The notes beneath the pieces are model-generated. The model was not told where the DNA came from. It worked only from the letters and a program-made list of their open reading frames with translations, and searched no databases. Shown in pieces: positions 11,199-28,913 of a stretch of DNA of 39,500 nucleotides (its first letter is position 1; each line of letters begins with the position of its first letter). Origin of the DNA: Gammaproteobacteria bacterium RBG_16_51_14 (GTDB lineage Bacteria; Pseudomonadota; Gammaproteobacteria; Eutrophobiales; Eutrophobiaceae). Made by a program: the position numbers and the translations under genes. The DNA lies in NCBI GenBank assembly GCA_001802375.1, contig MGXK01000055.1:1-39500 (forward strand). The letters run 5' to 3'.

Positions 11199-13697
11199 AT
11201 GACAATCTATTTTTCAAGATTCTATGAAGAACGGGTGCTCAAATACCCGCTGACTGTCCTGCTGTTACTGGCTTGTTTGCTGGCATATTTCAGTTGCTAT
11301 ATCCAGGATTTCAAGCTCGATGCCTCGGCTGATTCACTATTACTGGAAGACGATGAGGATCTGCGTATTTTCCGTGAAATGACTGAGCGGTATGAAACTA
11401 GGGAATTCCTGTTTGTCACGTTTACACCGAATGAAGATGTGTTTTCCGCTACATCATTGGCACAGATCAGGAATATACGCACTGAATTGAGACAACTGGA
11501 AAGAGTTGAATCAGTCACCACATTGATTGATATACCGCTGGTAAAGCAAGTCAAAGGCCAACTCTCTGAAGTTGCCAAAAACAAGCGAACGCTGGAAAGC
11601 AGTGATGTTGACATAGGCAAGGCAAGGAAGGAATTACTCAACAGTCCGATATTCTCTAATTTGATCATCAGCAAGGATGGACGTACTACTGCACTACAGA
11701 TAGACCTAAAAGAAGATAATACGTACCTGGAATTGCAAAAAAAGAAAAATCAACTGCTGTTAAAACGCAGGGATAAAACCCTGACGCAAGGCGAGAAATT
11801 ATTACTCGAGCAGACACTTGCCGACTATGATCTGGCCAAGACAAGGCTGGACCGGCTGAATCATCAGAATATCAAGGCTGTTCGTGCGATCATGAATAAA
11901 TACCGTGGTTACGGAACGTTGCATCTTGGTGGTGTGCCGATGATCGCCGATGACATGATTACCTTTGTCAAGAATGATTTGGTTGTCTTTGGCGTAGGTG
12001 TATTTATATTTCTGGTAGGTGTGTTGGCCATCATTTTCCGTCAGTTACGCTGGGTAGTATTGCCGCTTTTGAGTTGTATTTATGCCGTACTGATGATGAT
12101 CGGGTTGCTCGGCATGGTTGGATGGCGGGTGACGGTCATATCATCTAATTTTATTTCGTTGATGCTGATTATCACAATATCAATGAATATCCACCTGATT
12201 GTTCGTTATCGTCAGCTGTGCCAGGATATGCCTGATATCAGTCAGAGGGATTTGGTGTTATTTTCAACAAGGAAGATGGTGTGGCCCTGTCTGTATACCG
12301 CGCTGACGACGATTATGGCATTCTGTTCACTTGTCTATTGCGATATCAAGCCGGTAATCGATTTTGGCTGGATGATGACAATCGGTCTCACGGTCACCTT
12401 TCTGACTTCCTTTTTCCTGTTTCCGGTAATGCTCGTGATGCTGCCGAAATCCAAATCAACAACCTATCAGGGCAGCCAATTCAAGTTTACCACCAGACTT
12501 GCCTCATTCACGCAGCGACACGGTGTGATGGTATTGGGCATATCTGCCGTGCTGGTTGTCGCCAGTGCCATTGGCATCACCCGCCTGGAGGTTGAAAACA
12601 GTTTTATAAATTACTTCAGCAACGATACTGAAATCTACCAGGGTTTGAAACTCATTGATGACAAGCTGGGGGGGACCTCACCCCTGGATATCATTCTGAC
12701 GTTTGATGAAGATGCAGGGCATTCTGTATCCGGAGATGGAACCTTGCCATCCGGAGAGGAAGAGGATTTTGATGATCTCTCTGCCTTGTTTGGGAACATT
12801 GAAACCAATCAGGAGGATATGTGGTTTACCCCTGACAAGCTCGATGTAATAAAGAAGGTCCATGATTATCTCAATAGTCTCCCTGCCATCGGCAAGGTAC
12901 TCTCCCTTGCCTCTATCATCCGTGTTGGAGAGGATATTAATAAGGGGGATTTTGATGCATTTGAACTGGCCATTGTCTACAAAAGGATGCCTGAAGAGCT
13001 CAAGGCCAGCATGATTGACCCCTACATCTCAATCGAGAAGAATGAGGCCAGAATCAATATTAGGGTCCTCGATTCCCTGAAAGATCTGCGGCGCAAGGAA
13101 TTACTCGAACAAATACATTCTGACTTGACAGGGAAAATGGGTCTGGCCGAGAAGAATGTCAAAATTACCGGTCTGCTGGTATTGTATAACAATATGCTAC
13201 AGAGCCTGTTCCGCTCCCAGATCCTGACTCTGGGTATTGTCATGGCAGGGATTGCCGTAATGCTGCTGGTGTTGTTCCGCTCGGTATCACTTGCCATTAT
13301 CGGTATCATTCCCAATCTAATCGCGGCAGGTGCCATCCTGGGGTTGATGGGACTCCTGAAAATACCGCTGGATATGATGACAATAACGATTGCCTCGATC
13401 ACCATCGGTATTGCGGTGGACAACAGCATCCACTACATCTACCGGTTTCGTGAAGAGTTCCCTAAAACTCATGACTATATCGAAACAATGCATTATTGCC
13501 ACGCCAATATCGGAAACGCCGTGTTTTATACTGCTGTTACCATCATCGCCGGCTTTTCTATCCTGGTGCTGTCCAATTTCATACCAACCATCTATTTTGG
13601 CATCCTGACGGCACTCGCCATGTTTATTGCCCTGCTGGCAGCGTTGACCCTGTTGCCAAAACTGATCCTTATCTGGAAACCTTTTCCCCAGGGTTAG
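11199..13697 (+). CDS. MMPL/RND-superfamily transporter
   Basis: The 832-residue inner-membrane protein has the RND plan duplicated: one helix (YPLTVLLLLACLLAYFSC), a large periplasmic loop, five helices, then the same again. The second half ends in TIASITIGIAVDNSIHYIYRFREE, the usual MMPL helix-4 region with charged residues. Proteins of this type (HAE-3/MMPL, including HpnN) move lipids or other hydrophobic compounds using the proton gradient. The second loop has an acidic stretch near residues 502-545. It is followed by an MlaC-type gene, an arrangement like hpnN/hpnM, so the cargo may be a lipid handed between the two. The family is clear; the substrate is inferred. Confidence 0.85.
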   Translation: MTIYFSRFYEERVLKYPLTVLLLLACLLAYFSCYIQDFKLDASADSLLLEDDEDLRIFREMTERYETREFLFVTFTPNEDVFSATSLAQIRNIRTELRQLERVESVTTLIDIPLVKQVKGQLSEVAKNKRTLESSDVDIGKARKELLNSPIFSNLIISKDGRTTALQIDLKEDNTYLELQKKKNQLLLKRRDKTLTQGEKLLLEQTLADYDLAKTRLDRLNHQNIKAVRAIMNKYRGYGTLHLGGVPMIADDMITFVKNDLVVFGVGVFIFLVGVLAIIFRQLRWVVLPLLSCIYAVLMMIGLLGMVGWRVTVISSNFISLMLIITISMNIHLIVRYRQLCQDMPDISQRDLVLFSTRKMVWPCLYTALTTIMAFCSLVYCDIKPVIDFGWMMTIGLTVTFLTSFFLFPVMLVMLPKSKSTTYQGSQFKFTTRLASFTQRHGVMVLGISAVLVVASAIGITRLEVENSFINYFSNDTEIYQGLKLIDDKLGGTSPLDIILTFDEDAGHSVSGDGTLPSGEEEDFDDLSALFGNIETNQEDMWFTPDKLDVIKKVHDYLNSLPAIGKVLSLASIIRVGEDINKGDFDAFELAIVYKRMPEELKASMIDPYISIEKNEARINIRVLDSLKDLRRKELLEQIHSDLTGKMGLAEKNVKITGLLVLYNNMLQSLFRSQILTLGIVMAGIAVMLLVLFRSVSLAIIGIIPNLIAAGAILGLMGLLKIPLDMMTITIASITIGIAVDNSIHYIYRFREEFPKTHDYIETMHYCHANIGNAVFYTAVTIIAGFSILVLSNFIPTIYFGILTALAMFIALLAALTLLPKLILIWKPFPQG

Positions 13698-14011
13698 TTG
13701 TGTGGGGAGACATGAGAATCCTTGATATTCAGGTAATTAGCAGGAAATTCTTAAAAAGCATCCAGCATAGGTTACAGACAATATTCCTGGCTTTAATGAT
13801 GACGGGTGGTAAATAGCTTTCTTAACGAGATTGATCTAAATTACAATATGTTCAAAGCCTAATTCATGATGAATGATCAACATGCAGGTTTCCGTGTTCC
13901 TTGATGGAAACGCGGATTTCGAGTCTTCTGCAGGGCAATAAATAATGTATTATGAACTGATAAGGACCGATTCTGGTCGACAACAAGCAGAAGCCAAGTA
14001 GAGGTTTAACT
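13698..14011. other. Spacer between MMPL and mlaC-type genes
   Basis: These 314 bases hold no credible gene. The only structure noticed is an imperfect hairpin at about 13888-13911 (GTTTCC paired with GGAAAC) without a T-run. The region probably contains the promoter of the mlaC-type gene, but I cannot pick a clear one. Confidence 0.5.
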
Positions 14012-14638
14012 ATGAATGTCAGATTTCCAATTATCCTGATGATGTCGTTGTTCATCGTGTCTGGACTTGTCCGGGCGAATGCACAATCTGCTGAAGATAT
14101 CGTCAAATCGACAGCTGATCAGGTGATCAAGAAGATTGCAGAAAATCGTGCTGGTCTGGATGCACATCCGGAACAGCTTTACGATCTCATAAACGATCTT
14201 GTCATACCGCATTTTGATTTTACTAGTATGTCCAAATGGGTACTGGGCAATAACTGGCGGCAGGCATCGGATGAACAGCGGGCGAAATTTGTAAACGAAT
14301 TCAGGACATTGCTGGTGCGTACCTACGCCAGGGCGTTACTTGAGTATTCAGATCAGCAAATCAACTATTTACCTGTTCAAAGCGATCCGAATTCAAATCT
14401 CGTTGTCGTTAAAACAGAAGTCCAGTCGACAGGTTCACCCCCGGTGCCAATTGACTATCGCATGCATGTAAGCAACGGAGGATGGAAGGTGGTTGACGTC
14501 ATTGTTGACGGGATAAGTCTGATTGCGACCTATCGTGGATCATTCGCCTCGGAAATCAGGAAAAACGGGATTGATGCACTGATAAACAAATTAACTGAAC
14601 GCAATGAAACGCGTGTCAGTGCAATATCGGCTGATTGA
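14012..14638 (+). CDS. mlaC: MlaC/Ttg2D-family periplasmic phospholipid-binding protein
   Basis: The 208-residue protein has a signal peptide (MNVRFPIILMMSLFIVSGL, cleavage near ANA). The mature part is the MlaC/Ttg2D domain: YDLINDLVIPHFDFTSMSKWVLG, FVNEFRTLLVRTYARALLEY and VDGISLIATYRGSFASEIRK. MlaC carries phospholipid across the periplasm between outer-membrane MlaA and the inner-membrane MlaFEDB complex. HpnM of hopanoid systems belongs to the same family. Its place just before ibaG-murA is where mlaC sits in Pseudomonas. Here mlaF, mlaE and mlaD are absent from its upstream side and an MMPL transporter takes their place, so the partner may differ. Confidence 0.88.
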   Translation: MNVRFPIILMMSLFIVSGLVRANAQSAEDIVKSTADQVIKKIAENRAGLDAHPEQLYDLINDLVIPHFDFTSMSKWVLGNNWRQASDEQRAKFVNEFRTLLVRTYARALLEYSDQQINYLPVQSDPNSNLVVVKTEVQSTGSPPVPIDYRMHVSNGGWKVVDVIVDGISLIATYRGSFASEIRKNGIDALINKLTERNETRVSAISAD

Positions 14639-14873
14639 TTGCGTATCTGGAGAAGATCGGGGGTGCCGAACGGTTTTCATCATCTCATTCGAGCTGTCGT
14701 ATCAGGTTGCATGCAAAACACACAAAGGAAGTATCTGATAACCTTGCAGGCCTGCTAAATCATAGCCTTCCACTGCTGATGGTTGCATTTCAAGGAACTC
14801 GGTCAGCCATTGTTTATTTGCAGCATTATAACCATGATAAAATTCCTCCATCTCTGGTCTGCAATATAGATAT

Positions 14874-15125
14874 ATGGAAATTGACAGCATTAAAAGGCTG
14901 ATTGAATCAGGCATACCAGGAAGCCAGGTTGCAGTCAGTGGTGATGGTACTCATTTTCAGGCACGTGTCGTCTGTGATGTGTTTGCCGGAAAGACAATGG
15001 TGCAGCAGCATCAGCTTGTCTATGAAGCGCTTGGCGATAAGGTGGGAACGGAAATTCACGCCCTTTCCATCGAGACGTATACGACTGAAGAGTGGGCAGG
15101 AAGAAAACAGCCCAGGGTGCCCTGA
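14874..15125 (+). CDS. ibaG: BolA-family protein IbaG
   Basis: The 83-residue protein is a BolA/YrbA-type factor. It contains VSGDGTHFQARVVCDVFAGKTMVQQHQLVYEALGDK with the conserved helix-turn and RQH-like region, followed by IHALSIETYT. IbaG-type proteins bind iron-sulfur clusters with monothiol glutaredoxins and have been linked to acid stress. It lies 26 bases before murA, as in most gammaproteobacteria. The preceding 235 bases, where mlaB would be expected, contain no recognised gene. Confidence 0.93.
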   Translation: MEIDSIKRLIESGIPGSQVAVSGDGTHFQARVVCDVFAGKTMVQQHQLVYEALGDKVGTEIHALSIETYTTEEWAGRKQPRVP

Positions 15126-15148: not shown

Positions 15149-16411
<1,263 letters not shown>

Positions 16412-27620: not shown

Positions 27621-28913
27621 ATAACTTCTCACTGCTGTCCCGTTAACTTTCACAACAAAGCCAACTGATTATATAGAGAGTTGTTTGTTGTGAGGTGGGC
27701 CGCCCCGTAATAAAGCTAACAAATCTCTTTTTGCAAACAGATTGAGTTGTAATAAACGTAATATCTGCTGCATGCTTTTGTTCAGTTTTGACTGGAATTT
27801 GATAAAGGCCAGCAGGAGATAAACACACAAGGCGATCCAGATTTGTGTCATCACTGCATTCTTGCTTGTGCCGATGAAGGACTTGATTTTCAAATTTTGT
27901 TTAATCCATTTGAAGAATAATTCCACCTGCCAACGGGCCTTGCATATATCGGCAATGGTCTTGGCTGCCAGTTTGAAATTGTTGGTCAAAAAAACATAGT
28001 GCTTACTGGTCTCGGGATCGCGATATCCGATACGACGCAGTGGAACAGGGCATTTTTTTACCGTCTGAATACCAGCGAATTCAATGGTTTGATCGCTACT
28101 CAGGCCCTGCTTCCTGGTGACCTCCCGGCGTTCAATGACACTATAATCGGCATTGGACTTCTGACGGGTGACAAAGAATATTCCTTTCTCAGTCAATTGG
28201 TTAAACCAGGCATAGTCGTTATAGCCACGGTCAATGGCGACCATACTGCCTTGCGGGAATTCCAATGTACGGCCCACTTCAATATCCGATATTTTACCCG
28301 TCGTCACAGTAACCAACTCAAGCAGATAAGCCTTATGATTCAAACCCGCATGAAGTTTGATGGCACCTTTGGTTGAACGGAAGTCAGCCCATGGAAAGAC
28401 AGACAGGCACAAGTCAATGGCAGACGCATCCAGTGAATATAACGGATGATTGAAACGAAAATTGTGGCCAGGTATTATGCCCTGACAACGGCGCAATAGT
28501 TTTCCAAACAAGGCTTCCTATAACGTATAAGGTTTATCTTCGTTGATGCGAGACAGATTCGAGCGCGAGAGTTTGGCACTGCCTAAATGATAAAGTCGAT
28601 GCGCCTGGGCGGACAAGTTTTCTACCATGTCACGCAGGCTGCTTCGACCTGACAGTTGTGCCATAGCGAGTGTCACGAATTGCGACCATCGGGTGGCGGT
28701 ACGGAACGAACGACCATGATGGTGCTGATTTGCCAGGGTCTCGAATTCATGTCCCGGCACCAATTTTAGTATTTGCAAGAAGATCGTATTACCATGTGCC
28801 ATGGCCTGATTCCCCTATTTGATTCAATTAGTTATGCAAAACATATTGTACCAAATCATGGTTGAATCAGGCCTGTTTTCTTGGCTGTTAACGGGACAGC
28901 AGTGATAACTTCT
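27621..28913. mobile_element. IS4-family insertion sequence with 9-bp target duplication
   Basis: The element spans 27630-28904 (1275 bp). Its ends are perfect 18-bp inverted repeats: CACTGCTGTCCCGTTAAC at 27630-27647 and its complement at 28887-28904. ATAACTTCT flanks it directly on both sides (27621-27629 and 28905-28913), a clean 9-bp target duplication typical of IS4-family transposition. The intact ends and duplication point to a recent insertion. The single transposase gene carries an in-frame stop. Removing the element and one repeat joins 27629 to 28914, a short distance from the antitoxin start. Confidence 0.93.
27669..28802 (-). pseudogene. IS4-family transposase broken by one in-frame amber codon
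   Basis: The first 94 codons (MAHGNTIFLQILKLVPGHEFE onward) match the DUF4372 N-terminal domain of IS4-type transposases. They end at a TAG at 28520-28518. The same frame then runs on without a break for about 282 codons. This part holds the DDE domain: Asp in LDASAIDLC, Asp in VAIDRGYNDY and Glu in the signature ARWQVELFFKWIKQ. Homologues usually have an aromatic residue before EALF here, so one base change from a Tyr codon would explain the stop. Unless the amber codon is read through, no full transposase is made. Confidence 0.9.

Follow-up and report, generated by a model that had tools for sequence, protein, structure and literature searches.

In the Mla pathway (MlaA–MlaC–MlaFEDB), MlaA accepts lipid from the outer leaflet, and the direction in which phospholipid is transported has been disputed, according to the excerpted text of PMC10212509. 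As far as the consulted sections of the following sources go, Brucella has another chimeric lipid system, Mla-Pqi, without a MlaC homologue (PMC12436622). In Campylobacter jejuni, MlaA and MlaC (Cj1371 and Cj1372) are clustered and the homologues of MlaEFD (Cj1646-1648) lie at another place (PMC6549495), and Helicobacter pylori has MlaF, MlaE and MlaD and neither MlaA nor MlaC (PMC11756786). The gene sets of C. jejuni and H. pylori fit the idea that MlaA–MlaC can travel apart from MlaFED. Here we describe a locus of Gammaproteobacteria bacterium RBG_16_51_14 in which the gene for a large transporter of the resistance-nodulation-division (RND) superfamily, a member of the MMPL family and called MMPL below, directly precedes mlaC. 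It lies in a stretch of 39,500 nucleotides of contig MGXK01000055.1 that was analyzed as a whole and is called the window (G000:C55:1-39500). The source genome is a 2.67-Mb draft of 154 contigs and is about 96% complete.

We propose that this MMPL is the inner-membrane RND partner of the phospholipid carrier MlaC and that it does the job of MlaFEDB in E. coli. We assign this reading a probability of roughly 0.6. The pairing of the two genes, the alternation of MMPL and mlaFED in one slot, the joint retention of MMPL and MlaC, and the predicted folds are established directly.

Candidate partners of mlaC at one slot and across the class

The slot was compared in a sample of 53 genomes of the window's family, in which MMPL was called at E ≤ 1e-40. 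MMPL is present in 44 of them (the window counted), and mlaC follows it directly in all 44. The next genes are ibaG-murA in 42 genomes, and the contigs end in the other two. The initial annotation of the window had described MMPL, mlaC and then ibaG-murA, with no mlaF, mlaE, mlaD or mlaB in the slot. This order is borne out by the open reading frames (ORFs) and by Pfam, and the pairing by all 44 family genomes.

If the slot is written as pdxB-purN-X-mlaC-ibaG-murA-hisG-hisD, X is MMPL in the 44 genomes. X is mlaF-mlaE-mlaD in G020, G021, and G022, at the same place upstream of mlaC-ibaG-murA. In G021 and G022 the space between mlaC and ibaG holds STAS/MlaB genes; STAS_2 matches were obtained in L192 and L193, and an mlaB_1 match in L193. 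In G022 the F protein scores 413 bits (MlaF model, cut-off 441), the E protein 420 bits (MlaE model, cut-off 315), and the D protein 183 bits (MlaD model, cut-off 135). The slot holds mlaC alone, with no X, in five genomes (G004, G005, G009, G011, and G019), and neither MMPL nor MlaC was found in G027, which is 63% complete. Slot copies of MlaC with MMPL, with mlaFED, and with nothing interleave in a tree of 98 rows, and their shared position marks the genes as a single set of orthologues. G009 is sister to the MMPL-bearing G010 (support 99/89) and holds mlaF-E-D-C elsewhere; its empty slot reads as a recent loss of the partner. All 14 family genomes that have MlaC but lack MlaE carry MMPL, and all eight that have MlaC but lack MMPL carry MlaE.

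Tandem MMPLs, 58 and 63% identical to that of the window, precede one mlaC in the same slot of another family member (L075, G037:C12). A second pair, in the order mlaC then MMPL, occurs at other places in 13 family genomes (13 of 13). At L194 (G001) and L201 (G029), mlaC-mlaF-mlaE-mlaD is followed by an ORF of 116-123 aa, and the MlaC belongs to the clade of the second MMPL pair. A second partner exchange is possible at these two loci. They were rejected as the same slot as the second pair because their flanks differ from those of the MlaC–MMPL loci.

Co-occurrence was analyzed in 369 genomes of the window's class, with MMPL called at E ≤ 1e-80. In the genome samples MlaE is the sole proxy for the ATP-binding cassette (ABC) complex, and the MlaE-less set was obtained by subtraction. 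MMPL is present in 64 of the 369 genomes and MlaE in 325, which leaves 44 without MlaE. MlaE is missing in 30 of the 64 genomes with MMPL compared with 14 of the 305 others (p 3.8e-16). MlaC is kept in all 30 MlaE-less genomes with MMPL, whereas it is kept in none of the 14 without MMPL (Fisher 8.7e-12). The contrast is 29/29 versus 0/7 (p 1.2e-7) when three tiny genomes of the f19 family and those less than 90% complete are left out, and 21 versus 10 (p 2.3e-8) when it is collapsed to families. MlaA was found in 26 of the 29 MlaE-less MMPL genomes searched (G003 excluded) compared with four of the 14 MlaE-less genomes without MMPL. Within one genus, G138 has adjacent MMPL and MlaC as well as MlaA; in G384, only MlaA is present of the three. 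These results support the earlier suggestion of a periplasmic lipid carrier with MMPL instead of the ABC complex, as MMPL and mlaF-E-D replace each other in the slot and MlaC survives the loss of MlaE only with MMPL.

The linkage recurs in distant lineages. By coordinates, MlaC adjoins MMPL in nine of 60 distant MMPL genomes of the class. A scan of GTDB gave at least 578 MMPL relatives, of which the best 80 loci were examined. MlaC lies beside MMPL in 38 of these 80, 18 of the 38 being members of the window's family again, and a MlaA gene is also present in 11 of the 80. The order is MlaA-MlaC-MMPL in Kiritimatiellota (L177 and L178), MMPL-MlaC with a neighbouring MlaA is found in L123, L131, and L169 (Myxococcota and others), and the three genes adjoin murA in L151 and five more loci. 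MlaA and MlaC are confirmed by Pfam in five loci (L177, L178, L123, L151, and L169). MlaA-MMPL-MlaC, all in one direction, is found in G150 and G288 (Pfam-confirmed for G150) and, by coordinates, in G392, where MMPL is not visible in the ORF tiling. At six MMPL loci without an adjacent MlaC (L113, L138, L174, L150, L165, and L129), Pfam recognizes no MlaC or MlaA among ten neighbours. The comparison of gene neighbourhoods proposed in the initial annotation returns a recurrent linkage to MlaC, often with MlaA, in different gene orders.

MlaC was found in 45, and MlaE in 13, of 47 GTDB genomes picked for carrying MMPL. These include no MlaE in any of seven SAR11-type/Pelagibacteraceae genomes examined (G053, G054, G055, G058, G086, G089, and G093; 0.6-1.1 Mb, completeness unstated), of which five have one MlaC each and two have none. 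In a SUP05 genome (G074), MlaC occurs once and MlaE was not found. In many relatives, no candidate for the inner-membrane partner of MlaC other than MMPL was found. This holds for members of some 20 families of the class, for the SUP05 genome examined, and for several genomes whose MMPL is of the SAR11 (Pelagibacteraceae) type. We consider it slightly better than an even bet that these genomes represent a second, proton-driven form of the Mla system, in which MlaA and MlaC are kept and MlaFEDB is replaced by one RND protein of the window's subfamily.

The window locus and its proteins

The gene order in the window is secD-secF-pdxB-purN-gloA, a DUF4399 gene on the opposite strand, MMPL, mlaC, ibaG, murA, hisG, hisD, and hisC. 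Flanking genes not named by Pfam, such as murA, were named from reading the sequence. The features of the locus are as follows (TM, transmembrane helix):

11199-13697, + strand: MMPL/RND transporter gene, 832 aa (PF03176, 101.5 bits; cut-off 20.5)
12192-12194, + strand: codon of His332 in TM4, invariant in the alignment of 114 members
13419-13421, + strand: codon of Asp741, the conserved TM10 acid that is presumed to act in a proton relay, with the invariant His745-Tyr746 after it
13698-14011, + strand: MMPL–mlaC gap of 314 bp, with no known-family gene in the stop-to-stop ORF list
14012-14638, + strand: mlaC, predicted periplasmic phospholipid carrier, 208 aa (PF05494, 206.5 bits; cut-off 26)
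14639-14873, + strand: stretch between mlaC and ibaG, the site of an mlaB (STAS) gene in two mlaFED-bearing relatives; none found in the window
14874-15125, + strand: ibaG (BolA family), conserved slot flank (PF01722, 64.1 bits)
15152-16411, + strand: murA, conserved slot flank, then hisG and hisD (ORF and translation; synteny in relatives)

No mlaF, mlaE, mlaD, or mlaB was recognized in the gaps at 13698-14011 and 14639-14873 by the ORF list, Pfam, or NCBIfam, and the E. coli-type MlaF/E/D/B partner set encoded with mlaC is absent from the window locus. A remnant of mlaB between mlaC and ibaG was considered and rejected, as neither Pfam nor NCBIfam has a family that matches the sole ORF there (88 aa, 14635-14901). 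The 314-bp gap was likewise judged not to hold a degraded gene; it contains no long frame, and nine stops are met when it is read in one frame. The scan reported no terminator-like site in this gap. Promoter and terminator counts are close to the shuffle level (10 versus 8.9 and 2 versus 3.1) and are uninformative on co-transcription. A DDE transposase gene (PF01609) lies amid housekeeping genes at 27669-28511 on the − strand.

The MMPL belongs to a sharply bounded subfamily. Members score at least 940 bits on their own profile, and other MMPLs and one fragment score at most 230. None of the eight members tested passes an NCBIfam cut-off. The window MMPL falls under the HAE3 cut-off (TIGR00921, 172.6 versus 351.9), as do seven of seven further members, and under both HpnN cut-offs (TIGR03480, 120.3 versus 751.85; NF052374, 91.6 versus 1100). 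Its score on the BstA model is 27.7 (cut-off 1400). Across 114 aligned members, Asn317, His332, and Arg336 of TM4 and His745-Tyr746 of TM10 are invariant, and position 741 of TM10 is Asp in 111 and Glu in three. By analogy with RND transporters in general, Asp741 is presumed to take part in a proton relay. Ser328, four residues before His332, aligns with an Asp of the source genome's own HpnN, and none of the ten members printed from the alignment has Asp at this TM4 position. With Ser328 in place of the HpnN Asp, the presumed relay would be unlike that of HpnN.

The AlphaFold model of the MMPL (pLDDT 86.3) has the RND fold. Among the matches listed, the nearest are of the MmpL4/5, HpnN, and NPC1 types, including MmpL5 (9b46; Z 43.3, root-mean-square deviation (rmsd) 4.0, 684 aligned) and NCR1 (8qee; Z 42.6, rmsd 4.8, 696 aligned). 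The RND fold and the conserved acid in TM10 suggest that the MMPL is probably driven by protons. The model of the slot MlaC (pLDDT 91.6) has the same fold as MlaC structures, phospholipid-bound ones included, and superimposes on the phospholipid-bound homologue 2qgu with Z 22.8 and rmsd 2.1 (177 aligned). The predicted cargo is phospholipid.

The source genome contains three MlaC genes and two MlaE genes. The statement that only an MlaC-type gene remains therefore does not hold for the genome as a whole. The genes mlaF-mlaE-mlaD, with a convergent mlaC of their own, lie on contig C41; the MlaD (TIGR04430, 141.6; cut-off 135) and MlaE (TIGR00056, 223.4; cut-off 212.2) encoded there both pass. 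Contig C77 carries HpnH, HpnB, a true HpnM (187.7 bits versus 160.1), which is the third MlaC-family gene, and MlaA. The MlaA gene (L005:7369-7941) scores 109.8 bits on PF04333 over its readable part and is broken by masked or unknown bases. Contig C6 carries a squalene-hopene cyclase gene beside a true HpnN (TIGR03480, 948.3 bits versus 751.85). All the genes that the initial annotation proposed to look for outside the window (mlaFED, mlaA, and hpn/shc) were thus located. It had named as a refutation a complete mlaFEDB cluster with its own mlaC elsewhere, together with a random distribution of the MMPL gene in relatives. The first of these applies in part, as an mlaFED set with its own mlaC is present; the second does not, as the distribution of MMPL is not random. 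The best reading for this genome is that the MMPL–MlaC pair operates alongside two further systems, an mlaFED set and a hopanoid set.

Three further loci of the source genome were seen. On C77, MlaA directly adjoins HpnM, HpnB, and HpnH (L005:7369-8635), so a hopanoid-type MlaC also has a MlaA neighbour. On contig C49, a further MMPL lies beside a YCF48-like gene (L018:4489-7950) and resembles the AmeABCD monoterpene exporter set. On contig C67, a 697-aa MMPL frame lies beside genes that encode male-sterility-type NAD-binding plus SCP2 domains and AMP-binding domains (L016); this region is possibly a lipid-making and exporting cluster.

Direction of transport, cargo, and inheritance

In the proposed mechanism, MlaC would carry phospholipid between the outer-membrane MlaA side and the MMPL, at its two periplasmic domains. 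The MMPL would then insert the lipid into the inner membrane or extract it, with the proton gradient instead of ATP as the energy source. We infer a physical hand-over between MlaC and the MMPL. Retrograde flow, from the outer to the inner membrane, is somewhat favoured because MlaA is kept in most of the genomes concerned. NPC1 offers an analogy for retrograde flow, as an RND-fold protein that receives lipid from the soluble carrier NPC2.

Several points weigh against our proposal. RND/MMPL lipid transporters are usually exporters, which counts against retrograde flow. MlaA is missing in three MlaE-less MMPL genomes (G362, G453, and G457). MlaC is not adjacent to MMPL in 51 of the 60 distant MMPL genomes, and MMPL occurs without MlaC in G192 and in the small genomes G053 and G089. 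The replacement is local in the source genome, which retains an mlaFED set accompanied by an mlaC of its own. The family-only table of MlaE and MMPL is weak when taken alone (p 0.09), and kinship is handled in the co-occurrence statistics by family collapse alone. Finally, the MMPL–mlaC gap of the window is 314 bp long, and an operon is therefore no more than putative.

The main competitor is export, in which the MMPL would draw phospholipid from the inner membrane and load MlaC for delivery to the outer membrane. We regard export as unlikely, although it fares best among the alternatives. MmpL3 and HpnN are thought to be lipid exporters, and by sequence these two are the closest solved structures among the matches listed; by fold, MmpL4/5 are nearest. 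The coexistence with an ATP-driven set in the source genome would make sense if the two systems worked in opposite directions, and the three MlaE-less MMPL genomes without MlaA are also consistent with export. However, the same fold is found in the NPC1-type proteins, which take lipid from soluble NPC2.

The cargo might instead be a hopanoid, a fatty acid, or another hydrophobic molecule, with the pair as a cousin of HpnN–HpnM. The fold of the MMPL and its distant sequence similarity to HpnN point this way, as does the slot MlaC, for which the HpnM model (TIGR03481) gives 129 bits and the model of E. coli MlaC a lower score of 93. Yet both window proteins are under the HpnM (160.1) and HpnN (751.85) cut-offs, true HpnN and HpnM genes are present elsewhere in the genome, no hopanoid gene was recognized on reading the window gene list, and mlaFED is accepted in the same slot. 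We consider a different cargo improbable. Identity of the window pair with HpnN/HpnM was rejected because of the scores and the separate true genes, and the kinship to HpnN–HpnM suggested in the initial annotation is not supported.

It is very improbable that the adjacency of MMPL and mlaC stems from an inherited gene block alone, with MlaC working with the distant mlaFED and the MMPL unrelated: secDF-pdxB-purN-murA-hisGD is conserved across the family, so that adjacency there is not independent evidence, and the source genome has an mlaFED set, but MlaC is kept without MlaE only alongside MMPL in the class sample, the linkage recurs in other gene orders, and 14 of the 44 family genomes with MMPL have no MlaE at all.

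If the MMPL is the inner-membrane partner of MlaC, the naturally occurring replacement of an ATP-driven complex by an RND protein next to one and the same mlaC is a clean way to test which inner-membrane partner MlaC requires and in which direction lipid moves. In SAR11- and SUP05-type marine bacteria without a detected MlaE, the pair is also a candidate for maintaining the lipids of the outer membrane. An MMPL of this subfamily may be the true partner of MlaA–MlaC in C. jejuni as well. Cj1373, next to Cj1371 and Cj1372 by locus number, is a protein that we take to be of the RND/MMPL type. It is termed an integral membrane protein in the consulted text of PMC11955535. The subfamily has no curated name and could be annotated as an MlaC-associated RND transporter. 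The recurrent pairing suggests a little-noticed second way of outer-membrane upkeep; no literature joining MMPL with MlaC or MlaA was found in a search that left bioRxiv and most subscription journals outside.

Comparison with known systems

Two described systems combine a related transporter with periplasmic partners. According to the excerpts of PMC10942540, the BstA/BstB/BstC sterol transport system of Methylococcus resembles the window pair in that an inner-membrane protein of the MMPL family has partners in the periplasm and the outer membrane on a lipid route between the membranes, but BstB is a phosphonate-type binding protein and not MlaC. In AmeABCD of Castellaniella, an HAE3-type RND transporter is likewise encoded with periplasmic partners; unlike here, these are a DUF1302 protein, a LolA-like protein, and a YCF48-related protein in the available text of PMC6394551. 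None of these three is present at the window locus, where the neighbours are glyoxalase, DUF4399, MlaC, and BolA proteins.

MmpL3, MmpL4, MmpL5, and NPC1 share the fold of the window MMPL but are only about 14% identical to it. To our knowledge, none of them has an MlaC-type partner. Like the window pair, HpnN/HpnM joins an RND transporter to an MlaC-type periplasmic protein, with the same folds. The differences are that the window proteins fail both cut-offs, that TM4 has Ser328 where the HpnN of the genome has Asp, and that the real HpnN sits by a squalene-hopene cyclase, in contrast to a window locus without a recognized hopanoid gene.

The window locus departs from the Mla pathway in its inner-membrane component, which is one RND protein rather than the ABC-type MlaF/E/D/B, with no MCE (MlaD) protein. 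It agrees with that pathway in the fold of MlaC, in the presence of MlaA elsewhere in the genome, and in the ibaG-murA neighbourhood.

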